Shown here: piece after piece, positions 19,112 to 39,501 of the stretch
Numbering within the stretch: the first letter of the stretch is position 1
Layout of the letters: the number at the start of each line of letters is the position of its first letter
From: Anaerolineales bacterium
GTDB taxonomy: Bacteria > Chloroflexota > Anaerolineae > Anaerolineales > RBG-16-64-43
DNA: 64,000 nucleotides
Assembly (NCBI GenBank): GCA_016932475.1
Contig: JAFGCU010000037.1
Span: forward strand, 1 to 64,000
Direction of reading: 5' to 3'
Notes under the pieces: model-generated
The model's input: the letters and a program-made list of their open reading frames with translations, nothing else
Told to the model about the DNA's origin: nothing
The model's database searches: none
Position numbers and translations under genes: made by a program

Positions 19112-19220
19112 GTGCCCGACCAGGCTTCCCGACGGCACCCGGAAGATCCGCCTTACCGTTGCTTCCTTTCGGACCTGGCGGGGTTTAGCGGGTTCCGCCG
19201 CGTCGGACCCGGCCGGGCAG
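19112..19220 (-). ncRNA. ffs: Bacterial signal recognition particle RNA (4.5S type)
   Basis: On the minus strand the segment folds as one long hairpin: TGCCCGGCC near 19219 pairs with GGTCGGGCA near 19113. Near the tip it has the highly conserved SRP domain IV sequence CCAGGTCCGAAAGGAAGCA, including the GGAA-type tetraloop region and the asymmetric loop AGCA. The length of about 109 nt matches the small bacterial SRP RNA. It binds Ffh and targets nascent membrane proteins. Confidence 0.93.
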
Positions 19221-28519: not shown

Positions 28520-29884
28520 TTACCCCTTCTCGGAATCATTCATATTAAAAAACACCAATCCGGAAAGCGGCTTGGGGTAAAAATGCGTGGACTTCTGGGG
28601 CATCTTTTCGCGGTTATCGGCGACCGTCATGATCTCATCCAATCCGGTATGGTTGAGGATCCACGCCGATTGCATCTCGCCCGAGCGCACCTTTTCGATC
28701 GCCAGCTGGATCTTGGGCGTGTAGTGCACCGTGACCTGGGGTTTGATCTGTTCCTCGGTCAACCCGAGCAGCATTTTATAAATAATCGATTTCAGGAGTG
28801 AGACATCCAGCAGCCGCAGGGTCAGCGAGCCGCTCTCCCCCTCCACCAGGCGGGTGGCGCGTTTTTCGTCGATCTCCAGGAGATAATAGGTGTTGACGCC
28901 CGTGATGGCGACTCCGAACTTGTGATCCCGCGGATCGGCGTTGCGCAGTTCGCGCAGCCACATTTCGCGGGCTTCCCGCTCGTCGTCCTCGCCAAAGGAA
29001 TAGATGCGCACCAGGAACCCCAACTGAACGGCGTCGCGGATGGTTTGTTCGCTGACCGGGGGCAGCCCCGTCAGCAGGCGGTGGGTCCCGATCGTCGTCA
29101 GCCCCTCCTGGTTGGCGGAGACCAGGTACATCATGATGAATTCCCAGGGCGCGTCCGGGCCGGCCTTGGGGTGCAGTTTGCGCATCTCGTCGCGGATGGT
29201 CAGCATCGTCTGGTAGCGGTGGTGCCCGTCCGCGATGTAAATCCGGCGGCTGGATACCGCGCGCGAGACCGCCTCGCACTGTCCGGGATTAACCAGCCGC
29301 CACAGCCGGTGGCGGAAGCGGGTGGTCTTTTCGGTGTGGTCGATCACCTGAATGTCGTGGTCGCAGGTGGCGAGGATCCCGTCGACCGTGTTGTGCGGAT
29401 CCGGGTAAATGCTCCAGATGTATTCGAACTGGGTGTGGGTGGTGCGGGTCAGCCGGATGCGGTCTTCCAGCGGTTCGCGGATGATATTTTCATGGGGCAG
29501 GATCCGTCCGCTCTCGTAATCCTGGAGGCGGACCAGGCCGATGAAACCGGCCACATGCCGGGGCGGCAGGCCTTCCACCTGAAAATCCTGCTCGTAAACC
29601 CAGAACGACGGCCGCCGGTAGGAAACGATCGTCTGTTCCCTGCGCCAGGCTTCCAGCAGATCCCGGCTGCGGGTGTAGCGGTTGTTGGATTCGGAATCCC
29701 CCGCCTCGATTTTATTGAGGATCAGACGGACGACGTTGTACGGATGCTGCTGGTAATACTCGTTTTGTTCCGAGGGGCTGATGACATCGTAGGGACGGGA
29801 GAGGCACAAGCCGATGTTCTCGACCTTTTCGGGATTGTAATGCTCCGCTCGAAACGGTCTGACCTCGTTGATGGCTTCCGACAT
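28520..29884 (-). CDS. DUF1015 family protein
   Basis: A 454-residue protein of the DUF1015 family, full length. It begins with VRPFRAEHYNP and contains RPYDVISPSEQNEYYQQHPYN, an internal YIADGHHRYQT near residue 235 and a C-terminal NHTGLDEIMTVADNREKMPQKSTHFYPKP. The GHHRY motif and the fold are related to ParB/sulfiredoxin-like nucleotidases, but no function is established. In several anaerobes DUF1015 genes sit next to amino-acid biosynthesis genes; here it is last in the aromatic gene run, 190 bp after aroQ. GGAGGAG precedes the ATG. Confidence 0.88.
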   Translation of the reverse strand: MSEAINEVRPFRAEHYNPEKVENIGLCLSRPYDVISPSEQNEYYQQHPYNVVRLILNKIEAGDSESNNRYTRSRDLLEAWRREQTIVSYRRPSFWVYEQDFQVEGLPPRHVAGFIGLVRLQDYESGRILPHENIIREPLEDRIRLTRTTHTQFEYIWSIYPDPHNTVDGILATCDHDIQVIDHTEKTTRFRHRLWRLVNPGQCEAVSRAVSSRRIYIADGHHRYQTMLTIRDEMRKLHPKAGPDAPWEFIMMYLVSANQEGLTTIGTHRLLTGLPPVSEQTIRDAVQLGFLVRIYSFGEDDEREAREMWLRELRNADPRDHKFGVAITGVNTYYLLEIDEKRATRLVEGESGSLTLRLLDVSLLKSIIYKMLLGLTEEQIKPQVTVHYTPKIQLAIEKVRSGEMQSAWILNHTGLDEIMTVADNREKMPQKSTHFYPKPLSGLVFFNMNDSEKG

Positions 29885-30074: not shown

Positions 30075-30524
30075 TTATCGGGCTTCCGTCCGCGAGTGAA
30101 TATATTCCAGCAGCCCGTTCAGGGCCAGCTCGTAACTCTGCCGGCCGAAACCGCAGACCGACCCGATGCAAACCGGGGCGATCACCGAACGGTGCCGGAA
30201 TTCCTCGCGCGCGAAGACATTCGAGAGGTGAACTTCCACCGCCGGCAACCGGACGGCGCGGAGGGCATCGCGGATCGCCAGCGAGTAATGGGTATAGGCG
30301 CCCGGGTTGAGGATCAGCCCGCCGGCCCAGGTGCGCGCCTCGTGGATCGCATCGACGATCGCCCCTTCGCTGTTGGATTGCATGGTTTGGATTTCAATTC
30401 CGCGTTCTTCCGCCAAACCGGCCAGCCGCTTGTCGATATCCGCCAGAGAAGTGCGTCCGTACACTTCGGGCTCGCGTTCGCCGAGCAGGTTTAAATTCGG
30501 CCCGTGGATCACCAGGATCTTCAT
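30075..30524 (-). CDS. aroQ: Type II 3-dehydroquinate dehydratase
   Basis: A 149-residue type II dehydroquinase, the small dodecameric form that catalyses the third shikimate-pathway step. VIHGPNLNLLGEREPEVYG holds the catalytic Tyr loop, QSNSEGAIVDAIHEA, NPGAYTHYSLAIRDAL and EVHLSNVFAREEFR follow, with Asn and His active-site residues present. I prefer ATG 30524 over one seven codons upstream because GAGGGAGG is spaced 8 nt before it. It is 54 bp downstream of aroKB. Confidence 0.95.
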   Translation of the reverse strand: MKILVIHGPNLNLLGEREPEVYGRTSLADIDKRLAGLAEERGIEIQTMQSNSEGAIVDAIHEARTWAGGLILNPGAYTHYSLAIRDALRAVRLPAVEVHLSNVFAREEFRHRSVIAPVCIGSVCGFGRQSYELALNGLLEYIHSRTEAR

Positions 30525-30578: not shown

Positions 30579-32144
30579 TCATCCCTGGCAGCCGATCGAC
30601 AGGAGCGCCCGGCGCACATCCTCATCCGCCACGTCCAGCCCCACCCGGACTTTCCCCGCCGCGACCGGAAGCGCCCACTTCACCCGTCCGCCGCGCCGCT
30701 TTTTATCGGATTGCACAAAGGAAAGGATCTTTTCCACCGGCGCGGCGTGCCGGATCGGCAGGCCGTAGGCGGTCAGGATCCCGGTCAGGCGCTCGCACAG
30801 GTTCGTTTCCGCCACGCCGATTTTTTCAGCCAGCGTGGATTCCGCGACCATGCCGAGCGCCACCGCTTCGCCATGCGGAATCTGGAAATTCGAATTGGAT
30901 TCGATCCCATGGCCGAGCGTATGCCCGAAGTTCAACGCTTCCCGCGGGCCCCGGCGTTCGAACGGATCCTCCTCGACCACGCGGATTTTCACCCGCGCCG
31001 CGCGCCGGACGATCCAATCCAGTCCGTCGGCGTTCACCTGGCCCGCCAGGCCCTCGATCTTCCCGAGCAGTTTGGAATCCCCAACGACAGCGGTTTTAAT
31101 CGCCTCGGACATCCCCATTTTCATTTCCTGCGCCGGAAGTGTGGAAAGCGTATCCAGGTCCTCCACGACGAGCGCCGGTGGATAAAAGGACCCGATCAGG
31201 TTTTTCCCCTGCGGCATGTCCACCGCGGTTTTTCCGCCGATCGCGGCATCCACCATCCCGAGCAGGCTGGTGGAAAGCGCAACCCACGATACGCCGCGCA
31301 GGTAGGTGGCGGCCGCAAAACCGGCCATGTCGGTGACCACTCCGCCGCCGAGGGCAAGAATTGTCCCCCGGCGTTCCATCTTGAGGCGGTAGAGCTCCGA
31401 GTATATGGATTCGAGCGTGCGCAGATTTTTCCCCGATTCCCCGGCCGGGAAGACGATCGATTCGACCGGAGCGGGCGCCAGCGCGTCCCGCACCGTCTGC
31501 AGATAGAGCGGCGCCACGTTCGAATCGCTGACCACGACGAACGGCGATCCCAGCTTGCGCTCCTCCAATTCGAGCGCCAGCCGCGGAAGAATCCCGCGCC
31601 CGATCAGGACGTCGTATCCGGCCCCCATGGCATTGACGTGGTAAATGCCGGCCAACAGCTGCGCCTTGCGGACCACATCCTCGGGCGCGAGCGTTGTGGT
31701 ATCCAGGTTCAACGGGAAGGAAGCATACAGCGCGGCGCGTTTGGCCAGCAGCGATTTAAGCCGCTCCAGCGGACCGGCTCCAACCAGGAGCGGACGGGCA
31801 TTCAACTCATCGCCCATGCGCTGAAGGATAACCTCCGGTTCGCACATCAGGCAGACCACCGGCCCGTCCTTTTCCACCAGCGCGCGGTTTTCCGGGTCCA
31901 CCAGTGTCCCCCCGCCCAGGGCGACGACCGTGCGGGTGGTTTTTCCCAGTGTTGCCAGCAGCGTTTTTTCCCGATTGCGAAAATCCGCCTCCCCCTTTTG
32001 CAGGAATATCTCCGCGATCGGCATGCCGGCTTCATTCTCGATTATCTTGTCGGTATCGAGGAAATGCCATCCCATCCGTTCGGCGAGGAGCATGCCGACG
32101 GTCGTCTTTCCGCATCCCGGTGGACCGTATATGAAAAAATTCAT
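30579..32144 (-). CDS. aroKB: Fused shikimate kinase / 3-dehydroquinate synthase
   Basis: A 521-residue bifunctional protein. Residues 1-160 are shikimate kinase: P-loop GPPGCGKTT (7-15), DTDKIIENEAGMPIAEIF, FRNREK and ALGGGTL. Residues ~170-521 are dehydroquinate synthase: GRGIL, FPAGESGKNL, LALGGGVVTDMAGFAAATYLRG, the metal-site NFGHTLGHGIE, and SDKKRRGG. It thus covers steps two and five of the shikimate pathway. A TACAAT box at 32237-32242 suggests its own promoter. Confidence 0.95.
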   Translation of the reverse strand: MNFFIYGPPGCGKTTVGMLLAERMGWHFLDTDKIIENEAGMPIAEIFLQKGEADFRNREKTLLATLGKTTRTVVALGGGTLVDPENRALVEKDGPVVCLMCEPEVILQRMGDELNARPLLVGAGPLERLKSLLAKRAALYASFPLNLDTTTLAPEDVVRKAQLLAGIYHVNAMGAGYDVLIGRGILPRLALELEERKLGSPFVVVSDSNVAPLYLQTVRDALAPAPVESIVFPAGESGKNLRTLESIYSELYRLKMERRGTILALGGGVVTDMAGFAAATYLRGVSWVALSTSLLGMVDAAIGGKTAVDMPQGKNLIGSFYPPALVVEDLDTLSTLPAQEMKMGMSEAIKTAVVGDSKLLGKIEGLAGQVNADGLDWIVRRAARVKIRVVEEDPFERRGPREALNFGHTLGHGIESNSNFQIPHGEAVALGMVAESTLAEKIGVAETNLCERLTGILTAYGLPIRHAAPVEKILSFVQSDKKRRGGRVKWALPVAAGKVRVGLDVADEDVRRALLSIGCQG

Positions 32145-32477: not shown

Positions 32478-33662
32478 CTACCAGAATATCTTCGGCTTCG
32501 GATCGAGTTGAAAATCACCCATTGCTCCGCGCGGAAGGCGGTCGAACCGCGCCCGGAGTTCGTCCATCGAATCCCCGCCGCACTTTTCCAGCACCGCTCC
32601 GGCCAGGACAAAGCAGATCATCCCCTCGGCCACCACCGCGGCGCGCGGGACCGTGCAGAAATCGGAGCGTTCGTAACGGGTCTCGGTTTTTTCTCCGCTG
32701 GCGAGGTCGACCGATTCCTGCGGGGAAATGGTGGTGGCGATCGGCTTCATCGCCGCGCGCAGGATGACCGGCTGCCCGTTGGAGATCCCGGCTTCGATCC
32801 CGCCGGCATGGTTGGACGCGCGCGTCAGCACATCACCCTCCCGCCGGATGGCATCCTGCGCCTGTGTACCGGGAACGGCCGCTATCGCAAACCCATCGCC
32901 GATTTCCACGCCCTTCACGGCCGGGATGCCGAAGAGCGCGGCCCCCAGGCGCGACCCCAACCGCTGCTCCCAGGCCGCAAATCCGCCCAGCCCCGGCGGC
33001 ACGCCGACCGCCGCGACTTCAAAGACGCCGCCGACCGTATCCCCGGCTTTCATCGCCCGGTCGATCTCCATCTGCATTTTTTCCTGCGCGGAGGCGTCCG
33101 GACAGCGCAGCGGATTTTCCTCGGCGCGCTTCAACCGCTCCTCGAGCGCCATAGCCGAGAGGCCGGCCCTGATCGATCCGATCTGCACGACGTAACTGCC
33201 GATGGAGATCCCGAGCGCGGCGAGCAGCTTGCGGCATACGGAACAGGCCGCCATGCGGGCGGCCGTTTCCCGCGCGCTGGCGCGCTCCAGCCCGGGCCGC
33301 AAATCGTCGAACCCGAATTTCATGGCGGCGGTAAGGTCGGCATGCCCGGGCCGCGGGATCGTCATGGAATCCACCGCGCGGCCTTTCCATTTGGCGTGAT
33401 CGGCGTTTTCGATCAGCAGCGCGATCGGCGCGCCGGTCGTTTTGCCGTCCATCACCCCGGCCAGGATTCGCGCCCGGTCGTGTTCAAGCTTCATCCGGGG
33501 GCTGGCGCCGCGGTACGGCCCGCCGCCCAGCCAGCCGGTCTGCCTGCGGATCAGGTCCGCCTGCAGATCATCCGGCTGCAGCGGCAGCCCGGCCGGAATG
33601 CCCTCGAGGATCGCGGTCAGCGCCGGACCGTGGGATTCGCCCGCCGTCGTCAGATGGATCAT
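32478..33662 (-). CDS. aroC: Chorismate synthase
   Basis: A 394-residue enzyme that makes chorismate from EPSP with reduced FMN as cofactor. It has TTAGESHGPALTAILEGIPAGLP at the start, RIEAG-like regions, the FMN/substrate motif RPGHADLTAAMKFGFDDLRPGLERASARETAARMA, and a C-terminal DxxTVPRAAVVAE. An upstream in-frame ATG would add 25 unrelated residues; ATG 33662 is preferred because it overlaps the aroE stop (ATGA) and begins the conserved sequence. Confidence 0.96.
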   Translation of the reverse strand: MIHLTTAGESHGPALTAILEGIPAGLPLQPDDLQADLIRRQTGWLGGGPYRGASPRMKLEHDRARILAGVMDGKTTGAPIALLIENADHAKWKGRAVDSMTIPRPGHADLTAAMKFGFDDLRPGLERASARETAARMAACSVCRKLLAALGISIGSYVVQIGSIRAGLSAMALEERLKRAEENPLRCPDASAQEKMQMEIDRAMKAGDTVGGVFEVAAVGVPPGLGGFAAWEQRLGSRLGAALFGIPAVKGVEIGDGFAIAAVPGTQAQDAIRREGDVLTRASNHAGGIEAGISNGQPVILRAAMKPIATTISPQESVDLASGEKTETRYERSDFCTVPRAAVVAEGMICFVLAGAVLEKCGGDSMDELRARFDRLPRGAMGDFQLDPKPKIFW

Positions 33663-34504
33663 GCCGCCTCGCTTCCTTCCAACGCCGTCCGCGCCGCCTT
33701 CATCATTACCGCGCGCGGCACGCGGGCGCCGGTCCATAATTCAAACGCCAAAGCACCCTGCTCCACCAGCATCCCCAATCCGCTGGCGGTCTTCGCCCCG
33801 CGGGATCTGGCCTCCCGCAGAAAGCGGGTTTCCAGGGGATTATAAACAAGGTCGTAAACCGGAATCGATCCCGGCAGCGGGATTTCCTCCGGCCACGGGG
33901 ATACGTCCGTCTTCGGCCACATCCCGACCGGCGAGGTATTCACAATCAGCGCCGCGCCGTTCGCTATCGCGGCGAGGCGGGGGTCGTCCCAGCCGAGCAC
34001 CTCCACCCGTCCGCGCCCGAGTTCGGCAGCCAGCGCGGCCGCCTGCTCGCGGATCACCGCCACCAGGCTGACCGTGCACCCGCTGCCCACCAGACCGAGC
34101 ACCACGGCGCGCGCCGCGCCGCCTGATCCGATGACCAGCGCCGGTTTCCCGGCGGGATTCATCCCGTTCCGCTTCAGATCGGCGAGGAATCCCGGCATGT
34201 CGGTGTTGTGCCCGATCAGTTGCTCCCCCCTGCGGACAATCGTATTCACGGCTTTCAGTTCCGCAGCCGCGCCCTCAAGCCGGTCCAAATGGTCGATAAC
34301 CTTTTCTTTATAGGGAACGGTGACATTCGCGCCGATCCAGTCCGGATCGGCCTTCAACGCGGATAATGTTTTTCCAAGATCCTCCGGATGTTCCACCGGC
34401 AGCAGCGAATACTTACCATGGATTCCAAGCTCCTGGAAAGCGGCATTGTGCATCGCCGGCGAAATGGAATGACGGATCGGCCAGCCGATGAGGACGGTTT
34501 TCAT
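33659..34504 (-). CDS. aroE: Shikimate dehydrogenase
   Basis: A 281-residue NADP-dependent enzyme for the fourth step of the pathway. Substrate-binding motifs are SISPAMHNAAF, NVTVPYKEKV with the catalytic Lys, and NTDMPGF with the catalytic Asp. The nucleotide-binding GSGGAARAV lies near residue 125. It overlaps aroA upstream and aroC downstream by ATGA, so translation is coupled along the run. Confidence 0.95.
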   Translation of the reverse strand: MKTVLIGWPIRHSISPAMHNAAFQELGIHGKYSLLPVEHPEDLGKTLSALKADPDWIGANVTVPYKEKVIDHLDRLEGAAAELKAVNTIVRRGEQLIGHNTDMPGFLADLKRNGMNPAGKPALVIGSGGAARAVVLGLVGSGCTVSLVAVIREQAAALAAELGRGRVEVLGWDDPRLAAIANGAALIVNTSPVGMWPKTDVSPWPEEIPLPGSIPVYDLVYNPLETRFLREARSRGAKTASGLGMLVEQGALAFELWTGARVPRAVMMKAARTALEGSEAA

Positions 34505-35841
34505 TCCAGCCGCGCTCCGAGCGAATTAAAAAGCCGCGCAAACCCGGGGAAGGATTCGGCGATGCACTCCGGCCCCTCGACCGCCACTGCGTTTTGCGAA
34601 ACCATCCCGGCCACGGCGAGCGACATCGCCAGGCGGTGATCGCCATGGCCGTCCGCGATCCCGCCGGGGAATTTCACCGGACCCCGGATGGAGAATCCAT
34701 CGGGGGATTCGGCAATATCGATTCCCAGTTTGCGGAGTTCGCCCGCCAGGACGGAAATGCGGTCGGATTCCTTGTGGCGCAGTTCGGCCGCGTGGCGGAC
34801 TTCGGTTATCCCTTCGGCGCAGGCGGCGGCGACGGCCAGGACCGGGAATTCATCGATCATATCCACGACCTCGCCCCCTTCGACGACCGTTCCCTTCAAC
34901 GGACGCGCGCGCACCCGCAGATCGCCGACCGGCTCGCCCGCGGATTCCGTTTGCGCTTCCGCGGTGATCTCAGCGCCCATCCGGCGCAGTACGGCCAGCA
35001 GCCCGGTTCGGCGCGGATTTAATCCGACACCCTGCACGAGGACATCCGACCCCGGGACGATCGCAGCCGCGGCAAGCAGGAACGCCGCCGAGGAAAAATC
35101 TCCCGGAACCTTGAATGTCAGCGGCGGAAGCGGTTCCTGGAGTGGAAACACGCGCGCCCGGCACTGCCCGGCTTCCACGCGCACGCCCAGCCAGGAAAAA
35201 AGCCTTTCCGTATGGTCCCGCGAGGGCGACGGTTCTTCGACAAGTGTGGAGCCTGATGCGGATAGCCCCGCGAGTAAAACCGCGCTTTTCACCTGGGCCG
35301 AAGCCACCGGTGTCCGGTATTCGATTCCTTTTAAAGGGGATTGTCTCAGCGCGAGCGGGGCGCAGCCTGTGCCCTCAATTGACCGGATCTCGGCGCCCAT
35401 TTCGCATAGCGGTCCGATTACGCGGTTCATAGGCCGCTTTTGAAGCTGTTCCGATCCATCCAAAATGAATTCCGGACGGATGGAATTGGAAATCCAACCC
35501 GGTTTTCCGGCCAGTGCGCCGCTTAACAACCGCATCGTCGTTGCCGAATTGCCGCAATTCAGCGGCTTTGCCTCCCCCGCCCCTTCTGCGGATGGGGATT
35601 GGAATCCCCTTCGGCCGGCGCCTTCGACAACCAGTGCCTCCCCTTCCCAACTCCACTCAATCCGGAGGCCGGTCAGCGCATTAAGCATGACCTGGGTGAC
35701 TCCGGCGCGCAGCATGCCGTCGATCCGGCTGCGGCCGGCCGCCATGGCGGCCATGAGCGCCGCGCGGTGCGATATGGATTTGTCCCCGGGCAGGCTTACG
35801 GCGCCCCGCAGAGGGGCGGCTGGTTGCGACCGAATGCTCAT
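34501..35841 (-). CDS. aroA: 3-phosphoshikimate 1-carboxyvinyltransferase (EPSP synthase)
   Basis: A 446-residue EPSP synthase joining shikimate-3-phosphate and phosphoenolpyruvate. LPGDKSISHRAALMAAMA lies near the N terminus, followed by LNCGNSATTMRLLSGALAG, SAQVKSAVLLAGL, FKVPGDFSSAAFLLAAAAI, the catalytic DMIDEFPVLAVAAA, and the C-terminal DGHGDHRLAMSLAVAG. It overlaps tyrA upstream and aroE downstream by four bases each. Confidence 0.96.
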   Translation of the reverse strand: MSIRSQPAAPLRGAVSLPGDKSISHRAALMAAMAAGRSRIDGMLRAGVTQVMLNALTGLRIEWSWEGEALVVEGAGRRGFQSPSAEGAGEAKPLNCGNSATTMRLLSGALAGKPGWISNSIRPEFILDGSEQLQKRPMNRVIGPLCEMGAEIRSIEGTGCAPLALRQSPLKGIEYRTPVASAQVKSAVLLAGLSASGSTLVEEPSPSRDHTERLFSWLGVRVEAGQCRARVFPLQEPLPPLTFKVPGDFSSAAFLLAAAAIVPGSDVLVQGVGLNPRRTGLLAVLRRMGAEITAEAQTESAGEPVGDLRVRARPLKGTVVEGGEVVDMIDEFPVLAVAAACAEGITEVRHAAELRHKESDRISVLAGELRKLGIDIAESPDGFSIRGPVKFPGGIADGHGDHRLAMSLAVAGMVSQNAVAVEGPECIAESFPGFARLFNSLGARLE

Positions 35842-36740
35842 TCTTTCCCCTTGGGCGAAGAGGGTTCCAGCAGCTCCTGCCGGGCCCGCCGGCCTTCCGC
35901 CAGCAGGACCTTCAAGCGCGCTTCATCGCCTTCGCGGACGCGCTGAGCCAGCGCTTCCAGCCGGTGAATGTATTCTTCCAGCGCCTGCAGGACATGATCG
36001 CGGTTGGTCAGGAGAATATCGGTCATCATCTCAAGGTTGGAGGCCGCCAGGCGCGAGGTGTCGCGGAAGCCCGGTCCGACCAGGGCGGAGGCCGAAGGCA
36101 GGCGGCGCGCGGTCTGGGCCAGTGCGACCGCGGCCAGATGCGGAAGATGGCTGGTCGAGGCGATCAGCGTATCGTGCTCGGCGGCGGTCAGTTCCAGAGG
36201 ACGGGCACCGAGCACCTCCGCCAGTTGCCGTCCGAGCGCCAGGGCGCGCGGCGAGCTGCGCGGGATGGGCGTGAGGACAAACGCGGCATTGCGGTATAGC
36301 GAAGCATCCGCATGGCGGATCCCCTGCACCTCTCGGCCGCAAATCGGGTGGCCGCCGAGCGGGTCGTACCCCTGCCCCAGGGCTTCCATCGCCTTCACGA
36401 TGTCGCTCTTGGTCGAGCCGATATCGATCACCACCCGGGCAGCTCCCTGCGGCGGCCGGATTTCGGCAAGCTCCTTCAGGACCGCCAGGATCGTCCGGAC
36501 CGGCGCGGCGAGGATGATCAGATCGCATTTTTGCACCAGGTCCGGAAGATGGAGGGCCAGTTCGTCGACCGCATTGCGCTCAAGCGCCGCCGCATCCGCA
36601 CCGGGATCGGAATCCAACCCGATCCGGCGGCGGCATTTTCCGGCCAGGCCGAGCGCGAGCGATCCGCCCATCAGCCCAAGGCCGACGACGCCGACGGTCA
36701 AGCTTCCTAATTCGTGCTGAGATTCATTTCCAGAGGGCAT
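35838..36740 (-). CDS. tyrA: Prephenate dehydrogenase
   Basis: A 300-residue NAD-dependent enzyme of the tyrosine branch, possibly arogenate-active. The Rossmann motif VVGLGLMGGSLALGL lies near residue 18, followed by IILAAPVRTILAVL, DIGSTKSDIVKAM with the Ser/Lys substrate contacts, GGHPICGREVQG with the catalytic His region, and a C-terminal helical dimer domain. No ACT domain follows, so feedback control may rely on transcription. A dyad covers the start codon. Confidence 0.93.
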   Translation of the reverse strand: MPSGNESQHELGSLTVGVVGLGLMGGSLALGLAGKCRRRIGLDSDPGADAAALERNAVDELALHLPDLVQKCDLIILAAPVRTILAVLKELAEIRPPQGAARVVIDIGSTKSDIVKAMEALGQGYDPLGGHPICGREVQGIRHADASLYRNAAFVLTPIPRSSPRALALGRQLAEVLGARPLELTAAEHDTLIASTSHLPHLAAVALAQTARRLPSASALVGPGFRDTSRLAASNLEMMTDILLTNRDHVLQALEEYIHRLEALAQRVREGDEARLKVLLAEGRRARQELLEPSSPKGKE

Positions 36741-36920: not shown

Positions 36921-37931
36921 TTATTTCCGCCCGACGGCGGCGGCGACCCGCTTAATATTCACGACCGCCCCCGCGAATGCTTCCGGCCGCAGGCTCTGCG
37001 CGCCGTCGGAGAGGGCCTCATCCGGGTGCGGATGAACCTCGATGATCAACCCGTCCGCCCCGGCGGCGATCGCCGCGCGCGAGACCGACTCGATGTATTC
37101 GTTCTTGCCGGTCGAGTGACTCGGGTCGACGATCACCGGAAGATGGGAAAGCCGCTTGACGACCGGGATCGCGTTGATGTCGGTCGTGTTGCGGGTGGCC
37201 GTTTCGAACGTGCGGATTCCCCGTTCGCACAAGACAACGCGCGCGTTGCCGCTGGCCAGCAGGTACTCGGCCGCCATCAGCCATTCTTCGATCGTCGCGC
37301 TGATCCCGCGTTTGAGCAGCACCGGATGCCCGCTCCTGCCGACCTCCTGGAGCAGCGGGAAGTTCTGCATGTTGCGCGCGCCGATCTGGAGCATGTCCGC
37401 GTAGCGCGCCACGGTTTCCACCTGCTCCAGCGACATCACCTCGGTCACCACCGGCAGACCGGTCGCATCCCGGGCTTCGGCCAGGAGTTTCAATCCCTCT
37501 TCGGCCATCCCCTGGAACGAGTACGGCGAGGAGCGCGGTTTATAGGCCCCTCCGCGGAGCATGTGCGCCCCCGCCGATTTGACCGCCCTGGCCGTTTCGA
37601 TGATCTGCTCGCGGCTTTCCACAGCGCACGGGCCGGCGATGAAGACGACCGCCTCCCCGCCGATGGCCACCGGGCCGACGCGGACGACCGTGCTATCCGG
37701 GCGCGCGTCGCGCGACGTCAGCTTGTACGGTTTGAGGATGCGAACCACCCGCTCCACGCCCGGCAGCAACTCCAGGTGCTCCCATTCGATCTGGCGCTCA
37801 TCGCCCAACACGCCGATCACGGTGCGTTCCTCGCCGCGGGAGACGTTTACGCCGTACCCCATCTCCTTCACCCGGCGCACCGTTTCGTCGATCGCTTCAT
37901 TGGCCGCATGATCCTGCATAACGATAACCAT
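36921..37931 (-). CDS. aroF: 3-deoxy-7-phosphoheptulonate synthase (DAHP synthase, type I-beta)
   Basis: A 336-residue enzyme for the first committed step, joining phosphoenolpyruvate and erythrose-4-phosphate. Residues 1-70 form a ferredoxin-like regulatory domain. The TIM barrel follows with [57 protein letters not shown] and [10 protein letters not shown]. The frame extends far upstream, but only ATG 37931 begins family-like sequence and it has AGGAGAGAC before it. The N-terminal domain is typical of forms feedback-inhibited by Phe or Tyr. Confidence 0.95.
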
Positions 37932-38026: not shown

Positions 38027-39256
38027 TCATTCTTCGTTCCCCAATGTCCGGGTCGGATACGACCCCAGTTCGCGGACGAACTCGGTGTGCGTGCGCATCT
38101 CTTCCAGCGCTTCCACCACCTTCGGATCCGCGGCATCGCCCTCGAAATCCAGATAGAACAGGTAATGCCACGGCTTCTTGCGGTCCGGGCGGGATTCGAT
38201 CTTGTTCAGGTTGATGCCGCGCTGCGCGAGCACGTTCAGGCAGGAGTGCAGCGCGCCGGGTTTGTGGCGGGTGGCGAAGATCAGCGAGGTCTTGGACGGC
38301 TTGCCGATCGGCCGAGCCTCCTTCGAAAGCAGGAGGAAGCGGGTGTAATTCGCCTGGACATCCTGGATCGAGCGGGCGATGATGTTCAGCCCGTAGATTT
38401 TCGCCGCCGTTTCGCTGGCGATCGCCGCGCGGTCCGGCCGTTTTTCCTGTGCCAGAATTTTTGCCGCGCCGGCCGTGTCGTACACCGGGACCGCTTCCCA
38501 ATGCTGGGAGGAGATCCAGCGCGCGCACTGCTCGAGCGCCTGCGGATGGCTGATCACCTGGCGGACCGTATCCACCTCCACCCCCGGCGGCAGCATCGCG
38601 CATTCCCGGACCGGAAGGATGAATTCCCCGATGATATGCAGGTCGTATTCCAGCAGCAGATCGTAGGAGGTGTGGATCGAGCCGGTGGTGGAATTTTCGA
38701 CCGGCAGGAGGCCGGCTTCCACGCGGTCGCTCGTCACCGCCAGGCAGATTTCCTGGAAGGTCCGGCAGGGTGTGCGCGAGGTTTCCGAACCGATCCCGAG
38801 CAGAATCGCTTCCTCGGAGAAAGCACCGTGCTCTCCCTGGAAGGCGATCGAGGCCGGGGTGCGGTACGCCTCAAGCGCCGGTTTTTCGGCCGGCGGGCCG
38901 GCCAGATCCGGCCGCAGCGACTCCGCCTCGTGCAGGTAGACATGGCGGATCTCACCCGGGGTGCGTTCGGTATTCCAGAGGATCAGGACGCGGATGCAGC
39001 GCGGAACGCTGCCGGCGACGTCGATCTCGTGCGCGCACAGCATCGCGGTATCCCGCCATCCGATCTCCCGGGCGGATAACGCCGGGAAGGCGGCGTTCAG
39101 GTCCGGCGTGGTGGTGAAGATGATCGCCGCCAGATCTTCCGGCAGGAATCCGTTGCGCTTGTGGATTTCCAGAAGCAATTCCTTGGTCCGCGCCGACAAG
39201 TCCTCGGATTTATTGCTGGGCGAGGTTGTCGCGCCTCGAATTCCCCGGACGGCCAT
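38027..39256 (-). CDS. pheA: AroH-type chorismate mutase fused to prephenate dehydratase
   Basis: A 409-residue fusion. Residues 1-120 match the AroH (trimeric, Bacillus-type) chorismate mutase: [55 protein letters not shown] and [14 protein letters not shown]. Residues ~130-315 are prephenate dehydratase: [34 protein letters not shown], and the catalytic NYTRFLLLS. Residues ~325-400 are an ACT domain with NKIESRP, the Phe-binding motif. Common PheA fusions use the unrelated AroQ mutase. A GGAGGAA site precedes the ATG, and the attenuator lies upstream. Confidence 0.93.
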
Positions 39257-39319: not shown

Positions 39320-39353
39320 AAAAAAAAACCGCGAGGCCGTTTGGCCTCGCGGT
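39320..39353 (-). terminator. Attenuator terminator before pheA
   Basis: On the minus strand ACCGCGAGGCC (39343-39353) pairs perfectly with GGCCTCGCGGT (39328-39338) across a 4-nt loop, followed by an unbroken T tract to 39320. It lies 35 nt after the leader-peptide stop and 63 nt before pheA, so it must be bypassed for the operon to be expressed. Confidence 0.9.
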
Positions 39354-39387
39354 ATGTGTTGGGCGTGTTACCGGACTTGGACCCTTC

Positions 39388-39462
39388 TCAACGCGAAGCG
39401 ACGGCTGCCTTAGGGGCACCGTAAAAATACGCGTAAAAGAAGAAGCCCAGGTTCGATTGCAT
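39388..39462 (-). CDS. Phe/Tyr-rich leader peptide of the aromatic operon
   Basis: A 24-residue open frame (ATG 39462, TGA 39388-39390). Its middle reads FFFYAYFY, codons 39421-39444: seven aromatic residues in eight. The preceding in-frame ATG (39472-39474) overlaps the -10 box, so the shorter start is more likely and translation would be nearly leaderless; no ribosome site is seen. The reading frame ends before a terminator, as in the known pheA and pheST leaders. A stalled ribosome at the Phe/Tyr codons would leave 39391-39399 free to pair with the terminator arm. This gene is too short for routine gene finding. Confidence 0.85.
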   Translation of the reverse strand: MQSNLGFFFYAYFYGAPKAAVASR

Positions 39463-39472
39463 AATGTAAGGC

Positions 39473-39501
39473 ATGTTAGCATAAGCGGCAAATACTGTCA
39501 A
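39473..39501 (-). promoter_or_regulatory. Promoter of the aromatic operon
   Basis: Consensus TTGACA (39496-39501), an ideal 17-bp spacer, then TAACAT (39473-39478) on the minus strand. Transcription should start near 39466, four or so bases before the leader-peptide ATG at 39462. The -35 box overlaps the last codons of the degenerate gene upstream. Confidence 0.8.

Follow-up and report, generated by a model that had tools for sequence, protein, structure and literature searches.

What does a short reading frame crowded with phenylalanine and tyrosine codons do when it stands, together with an intrinsic terminator, directly upstream of the genes that make these two amino acids? The question is raised by the window, as we call the 64,000-nucleotide stretch of an Anaerolineales genome (Chloroflexota; 129 contigs, 3.65 Mb) analysed here. 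In Escherichia coli, the trpL-trp and pheL-pheA systems combine a promoter, a leader frame in which codons for the sensed amino acid are frequent, alternative 1:2, 2:3 and 3:4 hairpins, and a terminator before a biosynthetic operon, and all these parts are also found in the Chloroflexota element. From its sequence, its relatives and its predicted folding, the element is very probably a ribosome-mediated transcription attenuator of the trp/pheA type, one that would sense how much Phe- and Tyr-tRNA is charged and control the whole shikimate operon.

Structurally, the element begins with a promoter on the minus strand, in which TTGACA (39501-39496) and TAACAT (39478-39473) are separated by a 17-nt spacer and match the consensus at 10 of 12 positions. 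A match this good is expected by chance about once per 2 kb scanned, and what makes the promoter credible is its recurrence in relatives at an unchanged distance. The -10 box is 10 nt from the ATG at 39462, a spacing kept exactly in 53 of the 78 leaders whose promoter matches well (three threonine leaders, described below, are included in the 78). Since a start about 7 nt past the -10 box, predicted near 39466, would leave only 3-4 nt before the start codon, the frame of the window appears nearly leaderless. Leaderless genes have been reported at about 5% in Chloroflexi (PMC3160421), and a leaderless precedent exists in Sinorhizobium meliloti, where the rnTrpL/trpL transcript starts at the leader ATG, although that leader senses Trp only and acts in trans as well (PMC7298713). 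Across 57 non-redundant leaders of the order, the densest 8-codon window holds a mean of 6.5 aromatic codons in frame versus 1.9-2.1 in the other two frames, and the sensing codons (TTT, TAT, TAC, TTC) total 175 for Phe, 176 for Tyr and 20 for Trp, so that the predicted sensor is balanced between Phe and Tyr.

Table 1 Features of the attenuator and of the downstream operon in the window, in order of transcription.
Feature	Position	Strand	Basis or domains
Sigma-70-type promoter TTGACA-17-TAACAT	39473..39501	-	Sequence scan and recurrence in relatives
Leader frame MQSNLGFFFYAYFYGAPKAAVASR and stop, 24 codons, TGA at 39390-39388	39388..39462	-	ORF and relatives
Segment 1: UGGGCU, CUUCUU, ACGCG; partner, segment 2	39430..39449	-	Folding, alignment
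Putative sensing codons 7-14, F F F Y A Y F Y	39421..39444	-	Codon counts by frame, masked-ribosome folding
Segment 1, inner part ACGG (Tyr14-Gly15); partner, CCGU at 39404-39401	39419..39422	-	Folding; 95.8% paired on the alignment, with UA/UG/GC variants
Segment 2: GCCGU (39405-39401) and GCUUCGCG (39399-39392), used in the antiterminator; CGCGU, GAGAAG, GGUCCA, used in the 1:2 hairpin	39378..39405	-	
Intrinsic terminator (3:4), 11 pairs, loop AAAC, nine T	39320..39353	-	Hairpin scan, alignment
Segment 3: terminator left arm CGCGAGGC (39351-39344) and loop/first right-arm bases ACGGC (39340-39336); partner, segment 2	39336..39351	-	
aroH-pheA fusion: chorismate mutase type I, prephenate dehydratase, ACT	38027..39256	-	PF07736, PF00800, PF01842
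DAHP synthase with ferredoxin-like domain	36921..37931	-	PF00793, PF18152
tyrA, prephenate dehydrogenase	35838..36740	-	PF02153, PF20463
aroA, EPSP synthase	34501..35841	-	PF00275
aroE, shikimate dehydrogenase	33659..34504	-	PF08501, PF18317
aroC, chorismate synthase	32478..33662	-	PF01264
aroK-aroB fusion: shikimate kinase and dehydroquinate synthase	30579..32144	-	PF01202, PF01761, PF24621
aroQ, type II dehydroquinase	30075..30524	-	PF01220

Downstream of the stop codon, the terminator hairpin ACCGCGAGGCC-AAAC-GGCCTCGCGGT (39353-39328) runs into nine T (39328-39320). In the 1:2 hairpin, ACGCG (39434-39430) pairs with CGCGU (39395-39391), and to this we add a helix between CUUCUU (39442-39437) and GAGAAG (39389-39384) and an inner one between ACGG (39422-39419) and CCGU (39404-39401); the hairpin overlaps the sensing codons, its outer stem spans the stop codon and its inner stem is ACGGC/GCCGU. 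The main helix of the antiterminator joins GCUUCGCG (39399-39392) to CGCGAGGC (39351-39344) with one G-U pair, and an extra helix joins GCCGU of segment 2 (39405-39401) to ACGGC, which lies in the loop and right arm of the terminator (39340-39336), for about 13 pairs in total that reach into the terminator loop. A preliminary description of this DNA had listed the promoter, the 24-codon FFFYAYFY frame, the 11-pair terminator and the nine T, all confirmed base by base, and had proposed three exclusive pairings among segments that are indeed present and complementary, the single G-U pair included; the pairings are supported by covariation and a partner-swap test (below), and two of them had been drawn too short, at 8 pairs for the antiterminator and with a shorter 1:2 hairpin. 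The folded transcript of the window is stabler than its shuffles (z = -5.9, with 0 of 200 as good).

Functionally, we infer from this layout an initiation at the predicted start, a coupling of transcription to translation, and a termination conditional on Phe and Tyr as the amino acids sensed. Ribosomes would load onto the almost leaderless frame and, where Phe and Tyr are ample, would reach the stop codon and cover segment 2, allowing the 3:4 terminator to form and polymerase to halt near 39320. Where either amino acid is scarce, the ribosome would instead stall on codons 7-14 and cover segment 1, so that segment 2 could pair with the terminator's left arm and loop once these are made, with read-through into the aroH-pheA fusion gene that starts about 63 nt past the T tract on the same strand. 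If the frame is not translated at all, segment 1 would pair with segment 2 and the terminator would form.

This switch was modelled by folding the transcript of the window as far as the terminator loop while masking a ribosome footprint codon by codon, at three footprint sizes. With the A site at each codon from F7 to Y14, the antiterminator had a probability of 0.91-1.00 with all three footprints; it was 0-0.01 with the ribosome at codons 1-3 and 0 with it at codon 18 or any later one through the stop, and a transcript free of ribosomes gave 5e-6. The antiterminator zone extends one or two codons past the aromatic run on either side, and the modelled stall zone giving read-through is therefore centred on the aromatic codons. 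Among the 57 leaders, 51 favour the antiterminator in the stalled state (median 0.996, versus a median of 0.02 without a ribosome). In these computations, the position of the ribosome decides which hairpin forms, and the change is the one foreseen in the preliminary description for a ribosome stalled over Phe and Tyr codons. Once the terminator is complete, it wins at equilibrium in every ribosome state, so the antiterminator must act kinetically, by forming first; this kinetic action and the stop-codon state, which is imposed by the masking, are assumptions of the model.

Genomically, the element extends well beyond the window. A member of the same genus (G001) and another of the same family (G003) retain FFYAYFYG, AAVASR, the stop codon, the spacer, the terminator and the hairpins before the same fusion gene, and a covariance model (R1) built from these three relatives, the window included, found a match in 117 of the 400 genomes searched in the order (E up to 0.05). 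The best 90 of the 117 matches comprise 83 leaders with a Phe/Tyr run, 4 with Thr codons and 3 (L113, L116, L122) discarded as chance terminators. The model is blind to genes, and aroH lies 20-135 nt beyond the terminator in 80 of the 83 Phe/Tyr leaders, with two others directly before a DAHP synthase gene (L114, L115) and one at a contig end (L099). Relatives, in which the preliminary description had sought a refutation, have preserved the run of aromatic codons as well as the terminator and the alternative pairings. The location of aroH also bears on a different reading, in which the aromatic frame is a translated sensor whose control falls on aroH translation or mRNA stability rather than on termination. 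The same frame and hairpins would serve such control, and leader peptides that act on translation are known elsewhere, but a T tract ends the hairpin in all leaders inspected, and the aroH start with its Shine-Dalgarno sequence lies outside the hairpins, at the distance just given past the terminator, which makes this reading improbable.

Because the R1 matches had been picked by similarity, the regions upstream of aroH were also scanned without that bias. Genes for aroH were taken from a protein search alone, each with 600 nt upstream, and a leader was called where a frame of 10-45 codons had at least 5 Phe/Tyr within 8 codons and a terminator no more than 80 nt from its stop. By this rule, 30 of the 38 aroH genes of the order have a Phe/Tyr leader and the other 8 are without one, and the same rule found none before aspartokinase (0/25), trpE (0/19) or ilvB (0/25), i.e., 0/69 controls. 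It could be argued that a T-rich stretch merely happens to read as Phe and Tyr before an ordinary terminator, as Phe codons come easily from T-rich DNA and the promoter and terminator scans by themselves are within chance; set against the difference between aroH genes and controls, the scarcity of aromatics in the other two frames, and compensatory changes in the helices, such a coincidence is hardly credible.

The genes behind the attenuator amount to a complete shikimate pathway plus the Phe and Tyr end branches, as Pfam domains show and as the preliminary description had stated. Their order (aroH-DAHPS-tyrA-aroA-aroE-aroC-aroKB-aroQ) is conserved in 11 of 13 long loci, the other two being one that ends at a contig edge and one that deviates after tyrA. 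Among 81 relatives, the aroH-pheA fusion is confined to the window's own family and the two are separate genes elsewhere; the fusion protein had no match in the viral contigs searched. One family of the order (L131, L132, L139) carries a tandem pair of DAHP synthase genes in the operon.

Evolutionarily, the RNA structure bears the marks of selection on pairing. On the alignment of the 57 non-redundant leaders, the terminator has 97.9% of its cells paired and 8 pairs changed on both sides, a level reached by 0 of 500 shuffles, and the covariation of the 1:2 hairpin beats all 500 shuffles on every measure; the compensatory stem changes that the preliminary description had suggested looking for are thus seen in both helices. 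For the antiterminator, 86% of cells pair versus 35-47% when the segments are slid, and column covariation alone is modest (44 of 500 shuffles), in part since segments 1 and 4 constrain segments 2 and 3 as well. In a partner-swap test, segment 2 from one genome was set against segment 3 from a different one, and native partners had the better fit (mean -19.4 versus -17.8 kcal/mol when swapped; z -6.0, 0/1000), also in a divergent subset (z -5.6), whereas three other region pairs taken as controls gave z +0.6 to +2.1. Matched changes across the 2:3 helix include CUGUUAG/CUAACAG (L082), CCGUUAG/CUAACGG (L074) and GCGGUUGCUU/AAGCAACCGC (L052), where the usual pair is CCGUUGG/CCAACGG. The bases of segment 2 are kept (GCCGTnGGnGGnGCTTAA in most leaders) while the frame that runs through them varies (39, 7 and 5 of 51 leaders), so it is the RNA rather than the peptide that is conserved there. 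This last result weighs on the proposal that a constitutive partial terminator accompanies a conserved small peptide or trans-acting small RNA, with no attenuation. Attenuator RNAs and leader peptides can act in trans, as trpL does in S. meliloti (PMC7298713); here, though, the C-terminal residues change with the reading frame over constant bases, the exclusive pairings are conserved, the switch zone coincides with the aromatic codons, and a threonine version exists before aspartokinase, and we rate this proposal as more improbable still than control of translation or stability. A trans function may exist on top of attenuation.

The threonine version surfaced because R1 also matched Thr-rich leaders before aspartokinase. 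In a gene-based search in relatives, a Thr leader and terminator stand directly before 12 of 25 aspartokinase genes (Thr leaders were noted at L095, L118, L119, L120, L146-L165, L164, L166 and L171), and none was found before 82 other genes; the window's own genome has one, MNHFQKFTPSLPGTTTTTTIRT (GTTTTTTIRT), before its aspartokinase gene (L171, G000:C70). Segment 2 CAGCCGTCGCTTC is common to the aromatic leader of the window and to Thr leaders, at 13 of 13 positions in L154 and L157 and 16 of 17 in L155, and several Thr leaders share either segment 2 or the terminator loop CCAAACGG with it. Such a version before aspartokinase fits the attenuation logic, and on these shared stretches we read the Thr and aromatic leaders as one module with exchanged codons, convergence being the alternative. 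A broader proposal, whose chances we put at about even, is that Chloroflexota possess a modular attenuator on nearly leaderless mRNAs, without kinship to proteobacterial leaders, in which an RNA core (segment 2 around CAGCCGTCGCTTC plus the terminator loop CCAAACGG) is reused with differing sensing codons, those for Phe/Tyr (joined by Trp in one family) at the shikimate operon and those for Thr at aspartokinase. The Thr leader of the window's family (L171:1350-1460, L164, L166) has a layout unlike that of the aromatic leader, with a Shine-Dalgarno-like GGAGAA and, just 5' of the Thr codons, a copy of the terminator left arm (CCCGTC..CTTCCGGG) that is complementary to the terminator right arm. 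The E. coli-type threonine leader (RF00506) likewise has Thr codons and a terminator; unlike RF00506, these three closest Thr loci have no Rfam match, and in several genomes the Thr leader has segment 2 in common with the aromatic one.

Phylogenetically, a second covariance model (R2), combined with a Pfam search, showed this arrangement in further members of the class (G701, G727, G746, G479), class- and phylum-level R2 matches without a leader having been set aside (G523, G716, G718, G755, G775, G892, G895 and others). In an order outside the class (around G618), which we infer to be Chloroflexales, a leader precedes 18 of 30 aroH genes (e.g., MAGSRFYTYFYYFTSRKPDWSLRIS), and one such leader, MQSRSAYYFWFWYFASSPRDWLLRVG, carries two Trp codons; this second lineage probably includes cultivated species. 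Leaders L321-L325 of the same order, also before aroH, contain Tyr, Phe and two Trp codons (YYFWFWYF, YFFWFWYF) and may possibly sense all three aromatic amino acids. No leader was found in 16 aroH loci from further groups. As to other amino acids, Trp leaders were found before 0 of 19 trpE genes, and Ile/Leu/Val leaders before 1 of 25 ilvB genes, with two more at looser settings; a few families (L213, L216, L226) have possible branched-chain leaders before ilvB (e.g., MLINLLVLVPVILLLVIEKPLLFGTAAVRSTRR) with a terminator.

Searches of the window and 20 related loci for Rfam leader, T-box and riboswitch families gave no match at the gathering score, and permissive thresholds brought up nothing beyond chance. 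Although T-boxes do occur in Chloroflexi (PMC3766115), a T-box or another tRNA- or metabolite-binding leader has only a vanishing probability with this outcome. Returning to the attenuator, it is unlike the E. coli trpL and pheL leaders in having Phe and Tyr codons in equal number, in preceding the whole shikimate pathway and in being apparently nearly leaderless, and also in an antiterminator that includes the terminator loop and in matching no Rfam leader family.

Among published systems, the attenuators of Actinobacteria follow the same logic outside Proteobacteria and differ in the amino acids sensed, being reported for Trp, branched-chain amino acids and Cys, with none for Phe, Tyr or Thr (PMC1262725). 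A 2010 paper described leader-peptide systems as confined to Proteobacteria and Actinobacteria, save the Firmicutes case that it reported (PMC2965389), and more his attenuators from Firmicutes followed in 2022 (PMC9413887). Like the present element, these histidine leaders combine a leader peptide with a terminator and an antiterminator, in a phylum for which T-boxes had been expected, but sense histidine before other operons, and sequence kinship with the Chloroflexota element is not expected. A 2013 survey that included Chloroflexi described T-boxes there and suggested that amino-acid leaders may be gammaproteobacterial in origin, with little transfer (PMC3766115). The preliminary description knew of no case in this phylum, and we likewise found no earlier report of leader peptides or attenuation in Chloroflexi or Anaerolineae in the searchable literature, one relevant subscription paper lying outside it. 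Because the mechanism is classic, Rfam is without a match and no earlier report was found, we file the element as a new RNA family in a new phylum with a known mechanism.

The presence of a probable Phe/Tyr attenuator in two Chloroflexota lineages, with a threonine sister, would mean either that the mechanism is much older or that it arose again, and an attenuator of this kind implies that ribosomes trail RNA polymerase closely in Chloroflexota. The new family comes with known target operons, and the probably cultivated species of the second lineage would allow testing.

Elsewhere in the window, a 454-aa gene (28520-29884) on the same strand as the operon starts about 190 nt past aroQ, and a bacterial small SRP RNA (19115-19214) and a tRNA (1-87) lie on the minus strand.
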